This document shows, one piece after another, positions 13,144 through 51,616 of a stretch of DNA of 64,000 bases (within the stretch, counting starts at the first letter, position 1; the number at the start of each line of letters is the position of its first letter). The notes beneath the pieces were generated by a model, which saw nothing but the letters and a program-made list of their open reading frames with translations, had not been told where the DNA came from and searched no databases. The position numbers were made by a program, and so were the translations under genes. This stretch comes from Candidatus Woesearchaeota archaeon. GTDB taxonomy: Archaea; Nanobdellota; Nanobdellia; Woesearchaeales; GW2011-AR4. The stretch lies in NCBI GenBank assembly GCA_016185755.1, contig JACPMX010000006.1, positions 1-64,000 on the forward strand. Direction: 5' to 3'.

Positions 13144-13286
13144 ATATTATTTATTTATTCAAAAATTGCCTAAGGCGGATTAAATTCCAAGTTGCCCATC
13201 CAAATTTTTTCAGCAACATTTTTAAAGAAATATCATAAACAAATCCCTGCGGAGGTGCCGGAGCGGCCAAACGGGATAGGCTTAGG

Positions 13287-13321
13287 TGTGCTGAGCAATT
13301 AATTTTGCAATGAACTACGAC
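13287..13321 (+). other. tRNA-Leu intron 1, canonical position 37/38
   Basis: The 35-nt insertion follows the nucleotide after the anticodon. A bulge-helix-bulge can be drawn: outer helix is the anticodon stem, the central helix CTTA against TACG has three of four pairs, with three-nt bulges GG|T and AC|A at the cut sites. Removing it leaves a seven-nt anticodon loop. A competing pairing TAGGTGT/ACACCTA exists in the precursor. The cut could shift by one base without changing the loop length. Confidence 0.85.
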
Positions 13322-13348
13322 ACCTATTGGCTTAGTGCCTACGCAGGT

Positions 13349-13380
13349 AATCCTCAAGCCGAAAGCTTGGGGGTCTGCAA
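13349..13380 (+). other. tRNA-Leu intron 2, T-loop position
   Basis: The 32-nt insertion lies after the first base of the T-loop (about position 54/55). A textbook bulge-helix-bulge forms: exon GCAG pairs with intron CTGC as the four-bp central helix, bulges GT|A and AA|T flank it, and a ten-bp intron helix ATCCTCAAGC/GCTTGGGGGT (with G-T pairs) closes it. Splicing restores a perfect T-arm GCAGG-TTCGAAT-CCTGT. Confidence 0.88.
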
Positions 13381-13507
13381 TCGAATCCTGTCCTCCGCAT
13401 ACTTTCTTTCATGAAAATAATACACCAGTATACTAATCCCTATACGACAAATCAAAAGCTTTTTATATCAAATTAACTCAAAAAAACATACGTGGGGGTG
13501 GATTACA

Positions 13508-34720: not shown

Positions 34721-35268
34721 AAAAAATGGCAACTCTAACTTTAGACGAATTACTTAAAACTGAACCAGTTGTTGAAATGCAGAGACACATCACTAAAATT
34801 GTCGAATGCTTTGTCAGGGGTTTTTTTGAATATACTTCTGTCTACCGTCCGCTAACCCAAACAAATCTTGCTGAACTGCCAAATCCTGTGGTTTCAGATC
34901 CCATATCAGCATTGCGAAGGGGTTTTTATTTAGAAACATTTACTGTAGCCGATGTAGCTTACTTTTTAAATATTCCAGAAGAACTGGTAAGGCGTAATTT
35001 TGAAGAACTTGGAACAAGGCCAAAAACCAAAGCCCTAGGAGGAAGATTGAATTGTAGATTGGCAAGTCAAATTTATCAGATTCGTGACGAATATGGTAAA
35101 GAAAGGCATGAAATTGCAGGTCTTTTAAAGGTAGACGTGAAAATTGTTAACGAAGCCATTTTGAAAAGAAGGGTTATAGAACCCAAAATTATCGATGGGT
35201 TAAGAATATTATACGGGATTCCTAATTTAGACAAGCCATATAAATTAACAAATATTCAGTTTACGTGA
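34717..35268 (+). CDS. Hypothetical 183-residue protein with helix-turn-helix-like repeats
   Basis: A soluble helical protein starting MKKMATLTLDELLKTEPVV. Two stretches look like helix-turn-helix units: FTVADVAYFLNIPEELVRRNFEEL and EYGKERHEIAGLLKVDVKIVNEAIL. An internal Met three codons in is an alternative start, but the ATGA overlap with the protease gene favours the first. It is visibly more AT-rich than its neighbours and separates the protease from the RimK-like ligase, which usually lie together. It may be an inserted regulator or a subunit of the system. I do not recognise its family. Confidence 0.7.
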   Translation: MKKMATLTLDELLKTEPVVEMQRHITKIVECFVRGFFEYTSVYRPLTQTNLAELPNPVVSDPISALRRGFYLETFTVADVAYFLNIPEELVRRNFEELGTRPKTKALGGRLNCRLASQIYQIRDEYGKERHEIAGLLKVDVKIVNEAILKRRVIEPKIIDGLRILYGIPNLDKPYKLTNIQFT

Positions 35269-51378: not shown

Positions 51379-51484
51379 TGCGCGAGCCGAGACTTGCGAT
51401 GCGAAAGCGCTGCTTGCTTTCTGCAATTCGAACTCGGGTGAGAGCCTTGGCAAGGCCCTATCATAGCCACTAGATCACTCGCGC
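51379..51484 (-). tRNA. tRNA-Gly (anticodon GCC) with a T-loop intron
   Basis: Reading the minus strand: acceptor GCGCGAG/CTCGCGC, D-stem ATC/GAT, anticodon stem GGGCC/GGCTC with loop TTGCCAA (anticodon GCC), T-stem CCGAG/CTCGG, discriminator A, no CCA. The T-loop TTCGAA is interrupted by 34 nt (51393-51426) before its last T; removal gives TTCGAAT. Mature length is 72 nt. It is the second of two intron-bearing tRNA genes in tandem on this strand. Confidence 0.9.
51393..51426 (-). other. tRNA-Gly intron in the T-loop (59/60)
   Basis: The 34-nt insertion folds as a bulge-helix-bulge-like structure: outer helix CCGAG/CTCGG (the T-stem), central helix TTCG against CGCA (three of four pairs), bulges AA|T and AG|T at the cut sites, and an inner stem TGC-A-GAAAGC/GCTTTC-GCA. 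Cutting at the bulges rebuilds the canonical T-arm CCGAG-TTCGAAT-CTCGG. Confidence 0.85.
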
Positions 51485-51503: not shown

Positions 51504-51616
51504 TGGGCCCGACCAGATTCGAACTGGTGACATTCACCTTGTAAGGGTGACGTCATTTGACGCCATGCAAACTCAGCAAATGCCAAATTTGCGCGGTACC
51601 GCTAGACCACGAGCCC
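51504..51616 (-). tRNA. tRNA-Val (anticodon TAC) with a D-loop intron
   Basis: Minus strand: acceptor GGGCTCG/CGGGCCC (one G-T), anticodon stem TCACC/GGTGA with loop CTTACAA (anticodon TAC), T-arm ACCAG-TTCGAAT-CTGGT, discriminator A, no CCA. The D-arm GTCT...TGAC is interrupted by 41 nt (51557-51597). Removal leaves a D-loop AGCGGTA with the conserved A14, GG and A21. Mature length is 72 nt. It lies 19 bases upstream of the tRNA-Gly gene on the same strand, so the two may be co-transcribed. Confidence 0.9.
51557..51597 (-). other. tRNA-Val intron in the D-loop (20/21)
   Basis: The 41-nt insertion can form a bulge-helix-bulge: outer helix GTCT/TGAC (D-stem), central AGCG against CGTC (two Watson-Crick pairs, one wobble, one mismatch), three-nt bulges GT|A and AA|A, and inner stem CCGCGCAAA/TTTGCATGG. 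Cuts at the bulges give exon joints that restore the D-loop. Confidence 0.85.

Follow-up and report, generated by a model that had tools for sequence, protein, structure and literature searches.

The window analysed here, a stretch of 64,000 nucleotides, is part of a metagenome-assembled genome (G000) of the Woesearchaeota (DPANN), which comprises 1.25 Mb in 16 contigs and is 94% complete. It contains an interrupted tRNA-Leu(UAG) gene that begins with G1 at position 13249, ends with the discriminator A73 at position 13399 and has the terminal sequences GCGGAGG...CCTCCGC-A. The features of this locus are:

13212..13226, plus strand: AGCAACATTTTTAAA, a candidate archaeal promoter (box A region) of putative function
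13249..13399, plus strand: tRNA-Leu(UAG) gene, with a precursor body of 151 nt and a mature tRNA of 84 nt; CCA is not encoded
13249..13286, plus strand: exon 1, tRNA positions 1-37, holding the anticodon TAG
13287..13321, plus strand: intron 1, 35 nt, site 37/38
13322..13348, plus strand: exon 2, tRNA positions 38-54, including the long variable arm
13343..13346, plus strand: 5' strand of the intron 2 central helix, GCAG (T-stem nucleotides), followed by the bulge GUA at 13347-13349
13349..13380, plus strand: intron 2, 32 nt, T-loop site 54/55
13350..13374, plus strand: intron hairpin of 10 bp, 13350-13359 pairing with 13365-13374
13375..13378, plus strand: 3' strand of the central helix, CUGC, followed by the bulge AAU at 13379-13381
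13381..13399, plus strand: exon 3, tRNA positions 55-73

The exons are collinear within the 151 nt, unlike those of split or permuted tRNA genes. A stretch nearly identical to AGCAACATTTTTAAA is located upstream of the tRNA-Leu(UAG) orthologues of G003 and G010, which have no intron and a single intron, respectively, and it is likely an archaeal promoter from which the precursor would be transcribed. Directly 5' of tRNA-Leu(UAG) in G009 and G024 (loci L151 and L128) lies a hairpin-folded partial copy of the acceptor end (GCGGAGGT...GACCTCCGC).

When the raw sequence (13249-13399) was analysed, no tRNA was reported by ARAGORN, including its intron mode, or by the Rfam tRNA model. With both inserts cut out, ARAGORN called a tRNA-Leu(tag) of 84 nt with a normal long variable arm and the T-loop TTCGAAT, and with the T-loop insert alone cut out it detected the 35-nt anticodon-loop intron by itself. 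An independent search was performed with a script that lists motifs resembling a bulge-helix-bulge (BHB), splices up to three of them and rescores the product with ARAGORN; its best solution was the same two introns. None of 150 dinucleotide shuffles of the gene yielded any tRNA after the same search, and none of 20,000 shuffled 32-nt T-loop inserts formed an equally good BHB at that junction. The spliced tRNA was identical to the intronless orthologue of G003, a member of the same genus, at 83 of 84 positions, so that removal of the inserts yields a standard tRNA, as expected of archaeal BHB introns. The claims of the first-pass annotation that this class II tRNA gene carries two introns, one of them in the T-loop, that both can be excised at motifs resembling a BHB, and that cutting out the T-loop insert restores the T-arm were thus borne out. 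As both ARAGORN and the Rfam model miss genes of this kind, the number of tRNA genes in these genomes may be underestimated.

Both introns fit the BHB register, which has a 4-bp central helix, 3-nt bulges and the cut between bulge nucleotides 2 and 3; for intron 2 this places the cut at 54/55. The T-loop intron has four of four central pairs, two 3-nt bulges and an intron helix of 10 bp. The same annotation had described it as a textbook BHB: the GCAG/CTGC helix and the three-base bulges stand, but the exon-side helix is missing (0 pairs), and the motif is therefore of the relaxed HBh' form. Intron 1, the only one of the two at the canonical position, has a good exon helix in the anticodon stem (ATAGG/CCTAT), an intron helix of just 2 bp and a central helix (CUUA/UACG) with three of four pairs and one mismatch, and its BHB motif is weaker than that of the T-loop intron. 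Neither intron thus has the strict hBHBh' structure.

Introns at 37/38 were also present in 12 compared relatives. Comparison of intron 1 (13287-13321) with the corresponding introns of G001, G002, G005, G008, G009, G011, G012, G013, G016, G017 and G023 revealed a common core like GGUGU-nAUGAGC...GCnAUGA-nnUGAAGACACC, in which GGUGU/ACACC is replaced by GGUAU/AUACC in G023. The UGA...AUGA pair around the GC stem of these introns resembles a kink-turn or a box C/D remnant.

The T-loop intron was found in six other genomes (G005, G007, G013, G023, G031 and G032) and again in G000 itself, in the tRNA-Leu(CAA) gene on contig G000:C12, and hence occurs in both Leu(UAG) and Leu(CAA). Among the eight sequences, the BHB and the hairpin were paired in 99.1% of cells (31-43% in slid controls), and two hairpin pairs were changed on both sides in a compensatory manner, indicating a conserved structure. 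The covariation score was reached by 2 of 500 shuffles, which ignore the relatedness of the sequences. The central helix is invariant, since the T-stem supplies one of its strands. Searches with a covariance model of the intron gave high scores only in tRNA-Leu genes, in 7 of 147 genomes, all belonging to one family. Site 54/55 is not named among the known tRNA intron sites (53/54, 56/57, 59/60, etc.) in an open-ended list (PMC4090602).

In tRNA-Leu(UAA) and tRNA-Leu(CAG) an intron is located at 9/10, between the acceptor stem and the D-stem (L226 = G000:C3:96200-96480; L194, L225, L224), and its arms resemble those of the 54/55 intron. The T-loop model weakly matched 9/10 introns of tRNA-Leu(TAA/CAG) in G007, G016 and G017 as well as a 53/54 intron of a tRNA-Gly. 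These similarities hint at a common origin or at intron movement between tRNAs, a hint too weak to be made a claim.

Within the genus, the exons of the orthologous tRNA-Leu(UAG) genes were identical at 81-84 of 84 positions, while the genes carried zero to three introns at at least five sites:

no intron: G003
one intron, 30/31: G004, G010
two introns, 30/31 and 37/38: G008, G012, G016
two introns, D-loop and 37/38: G017
three introns, D-loop, 37/38 and 54/55: G005, G013
three introns, 30/31, 37/38 and about 59/60: G002, G009
three introns, D-loop, 37/38 and about 59/60: G001, G011

The T-loop site of G009 and G011 was placed by alignment to within 1-2 nt of 59/60; in G011 the gene lies at the end of its contig. 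Even genes with three (G013) or two (G008 and G016) introns had exons identical to the intronless G003 gene at all 84 positions. As the exons are nearly constant while the introns vary, introns come and go with hardly any alteration of the tRNA. The turnover is quick, the same exons carrying none to three introns at the D-loop, 30/31, 37/38, 54/55 or 59/60, and the genus documents the gain and loss of introns in fine detail, with near-identical exons interrupted by zero, one, two or three introns.

Four other readings of the locus were weighed against spliced introns cut at 37/38 and 54/55. A decaying pseudogene whose inserts are never removed, with another tRNA reading the CUA and CUG codons, would agree with the unspliced gene scoring as no tRNA; it is very improbable, however, because across the genus the introns change around exons that hardly vary, because the hairpin is maintained by compensatory change and because the promoter-like upstream stretch is conserved. 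Moreover, BLAST searches of the 94%-complete genome found no second tRNA-Leu(UAG), an intact copy of which had been put forward as evidence that would speak against the introns; the sole relative was the interrupted tRNA-Leu(CAA). Retention of the T-loop insert as an expanded T-arm of a working tRNA, in line with the stable hairpin that the insert itself forms, is hardly credible, as the T-stem has to compete with the central helix and the T-loop TTCGAAT would be left split, and as orthologues lack the insert or have one at 59/60 instead. An assembly or binning artefact might be suspected in a metagenome assembly of 16 contigs, but the same intron is present at the same site in the six other genomes listed above, and we give this reading practically no weight. 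The introns may also be real and the T-loop cut located at 53/54 rather than 54/55: introns at 53/54 exist in G000, in Arg(CCT) and Gly(TCC), and in G031 and G032, where the 3' side is CTGCATTCGAA, both registers give the same product. In the window gene, however, this cut would put A54 where U54 is nearly universal, and 54/55 is the site expected from the geometry of the bulges, so that a 53/54 cut is improbable. Two removable introns, the second at 54/55, are therefore the preferred reading.

The gene is not isolated in this respect. On the minus strand of the window, tRNA-Val(UAC) (51504-51616) contains a 38-nt D-loop intron (51561-51598), and the adjoining tRNA-Gly(GCC) (51379-51484) contains a 34-nt T-loop intron at 59/60 (51393-51426); both genes were missed by ARAGORN, and Rfam detected only a fragment of tRNA-Val(UAC). 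The tRNA-Leu(CAA) gene (L141, G000:C12:22500-23200) has three introns, at about 30/31, 37/38 and 54/55 (sites read by eye). Using the splicing script, T-arm introns were located in G000 at 53/54 in Arg(CCU) and Gly(UCC) and at 59/60 in Arg(UCG), Gly(CCC), Pro(UGG), two class II tRNAs (probably Ser) and probably Glu(UUC). Including the two tRNA-Leu genes and tRNA-Gly(GCC), about 11 tRNA genes of G000 have T-loop introns, a census that covers Rfam-detected tRNAs with a clean T-arm after splicing, in which not every gene was checked by hand and some were missed. The isotypes assigned by the script are wrong for some genes (for example, Val(TAC) was given as Pro, and two class II tRNAs as Ile and Val).

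In G044, a genome of the same order that is complete in one contig, 11 of 24 tRNA loci contain a 59/60 intron. These introns follow the pattern TTCRAA|...GAAAG|TC or one close to it, in which the T-stem serves as exon helix and T54-T55-C56-R57 pair with YGAA of the intron. Since TTCRA is nearly universal in the tRNA T-loop, one intron end could presumably form a BHB in almost any tRNA. Site 59/60 separates the sixth and seventh nucleotides of a loop that has 7 nt and is closed by a stem of 5 bp, and we infer that it is the T-loop counterpart of 37/38. The arrangement in tRNA-Leu(UAG), which the first-pass annotation had called unusual, is so when compared with archaea in general; in its own lineage, however, T-loop introns are common, and tRNAs with two or three introns have been described in several archaeal groups (PMC4090602, PMC8450103, PMC11291895).

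The tRNA endonuclease gene of the host genome was also inspected. EndA, encoded within locus L230 (G000:C9:18900-20474), has 197 aa from its ATG, and its gene adjoins an RNase Z-like gene. Alignment to M. jannaschii EndA (1a79), in which all gaps are of a single residue, assigned the catalytic residues to Tyr133, His143 and Lys174. Identity to proteins of Candidatus Woesearchaeota MAGs was up to 85%, which places the host genome in this group, and the best PDB match in a single-sequence search was the N. equitans alpha chain 3iey_A. An insertion linked to broad specificity, for which the first-pass annotation had suggested searching, is absent: the segment VEKPRGADF of A. pernix (3p1z_B), taken as the CSL because the K-P-R triplet described for residues 44-46 lies inside it (PMC12397907, PMC6379350), has no counterpart in EndA or in any of the 32 aligned sequences, and there is no CSL or ASL insertion ahead of the strand carrying LSLIEALYL. 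RtcB is also encoded in G000 (580 bits).

EndA matches were present in 53 of 59 genomes, in 51 of them at a single locus, and no beta subunit was found with PF01974 or with the 32-sequence EndA profile. NEQ261, the beta subunit of N. equitans, is recovered by the profile (7e-19), as is a P. aerophilum partner chain (0.004), and the A. pernix partner chain is absent from its matches. As NEQ261 is picked up, a beta subunit of the usual kind ought to have been detected, although a strongly diverged one could hide. A weak PF01974 match within the window (34728-34835, minus strand, 12 bits) was discarded, being antisense to a longer ORF. A second EndA-like match in G000 (G000:C12:2-262; L227, G000:C12:1-900) shows 94.7% DNA identity over 337 bp and is cut by the contig end; its N-terminal tail and flank differ, pointing to a recent duplication or a strain variant. 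In G012 the additional copy encodes another complete protein of the alpha type.

A single gene with a catalytic unit of about 180-200 aa corresponds to the alpha4 type, and judged by gene content EndA is most likely a homotetramer. According to reviews, alpha4 enzymes that have neither CSL nor ASL cut canonical motifs only, and relaxed motifs need (alpha beta)2 or epsilon2 enzymes (PMC4033280, PMC6379350), and a direct role of endonuclease loops in specificity has been described (PMC12397907). Strict motifs such as those of the 59/60 type fit this accepted view of alpha4 enzymes, whereas the 54/55, 53/54 and several D-loop introns, whose exon helix is small or absent according to the splicing script, conflict with it. 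It is tentatively proposed, at somewhat less than even odds, that in Woesearchaeota an alpha-type EndA, acting alone and lacking both CSL and ASL, excises relaxed BHB introns located in the D-, anticodon and T-loops of numerous tRNAs. Loop insertions and a second subunit would then be dispensable for broad specificity, and the T-loop would have become a major intron site, with 59/60 structurally like 37/38. According to the accepted view, broad specificity arose with CSL or ASL insertions or with a second subunit, and intron diversity co-evolved with it; the present lineage, with its intron diversity and no detectable loop or subunit, offers a direct test of this rule.

Broad specificity might instead be provided by a hidden beta subunit or another factor, on the model of N. 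equitans with its (alpha beta)2 enzyme. This organism also belongs to the DPANN and has a broad-specificity endonuclease, and its alpha chain is the best PDB match of EndA in the single-sequence search. Nearly all of the 53 genomes have one EndA-type gene, however, the profile does detect NEQ261, and the extra copies are a near-identical contig-end fragment (G000) and a full alpha-type protein (G012), which makes a second component unlikely, if worth considering. EndA would cut between nucleotides 2 and 3 of each bulge, generating cyclic phosphate and 5'-OH ends that RtcB would join. The T-stem strand GCAG doubles as half of the intron 2 central helix and, being engaged there, would prevent the T-arm from forming before intron 2 leaves; removal of intron 2 would probably precede T-loop modification and final folding. 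The least certain step is that a single EndA, acting as an alpha4 homotetramer, handles relaxed motifs without CSL or ASL. As far as the genomes allow a judgement, the explanation as a whole, namely a tRNA-Leu(UAG) precursor with two BHB introns, fast intron turnover and the lone EndA as the likely enzyme, has a probability of roughly 90%.

Thermoproteales, Thaumarchaeota, ARMAN and Asgard archaea are known to have tRNAs that carry several introns and are interrupted at non-canonical sites (PMC8450103, PMC4033280, PMC11291895), and the two-intron tRNA-Leu(UAG) belongs to this class; a possible novelty lies in the enzyme. In the open full-text literature (subscription papers being outside this scope) no paper on Woesearchaeota tRNA introns was found. 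The Thermoproteales (Pyrobaculum, Thermofilum) have up to three BHB introns per tRNA, at D-, anticodon and T-loop sites and partly of the HBh' form, among them P. islandicum tRNA-Pro(UGG), which is interrupted at 25/26, at 56/57 and at the canonical site (PMC4090602). The Woesearchaeota genes resemble these in all three respects but belong to another phylum; the crenarchaeal introns accompany an (alpha beta)2 endonuclease with CSL, and 54/55 is not among the examples in PMC4090602. In the Asgard lineages Atabeyarchaeia and Freyarchaeia most tRNA genes are interrupted, more than half of them several times and often at non-canonical sites (PMC11291895). The Woesearchaeota share such multiply interrupted genes but form a different lineage, in which the distribution of introns can be followed inside a single genus that includes an orthologue free of introns, and the endonuclease is not mentioned in PMC11291895. 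Relaxed motifs at various tRNA sites are likewise shared with the ultrasmall ARMAN-2 (Micrarchaeum), which has an epsilon2 endonuclease (PMC12397907, PMC4033280); that enzyme is a homodimer of three-unit chains with ASL, whereas EndA of G000 is a single 197-aa unit without it. In size, in the single-residue gaps of the alignment and in its catalytic Tyr, His and Lys, EndA resembles the alpha4 enzyme of M. jannaschii, a type reported to cut canonical BHBs only (PMC4033280), whereas relaxed motifs are abundant here. This mismatch between an EndA without loops and relaxed introns is the interesting, testable part.
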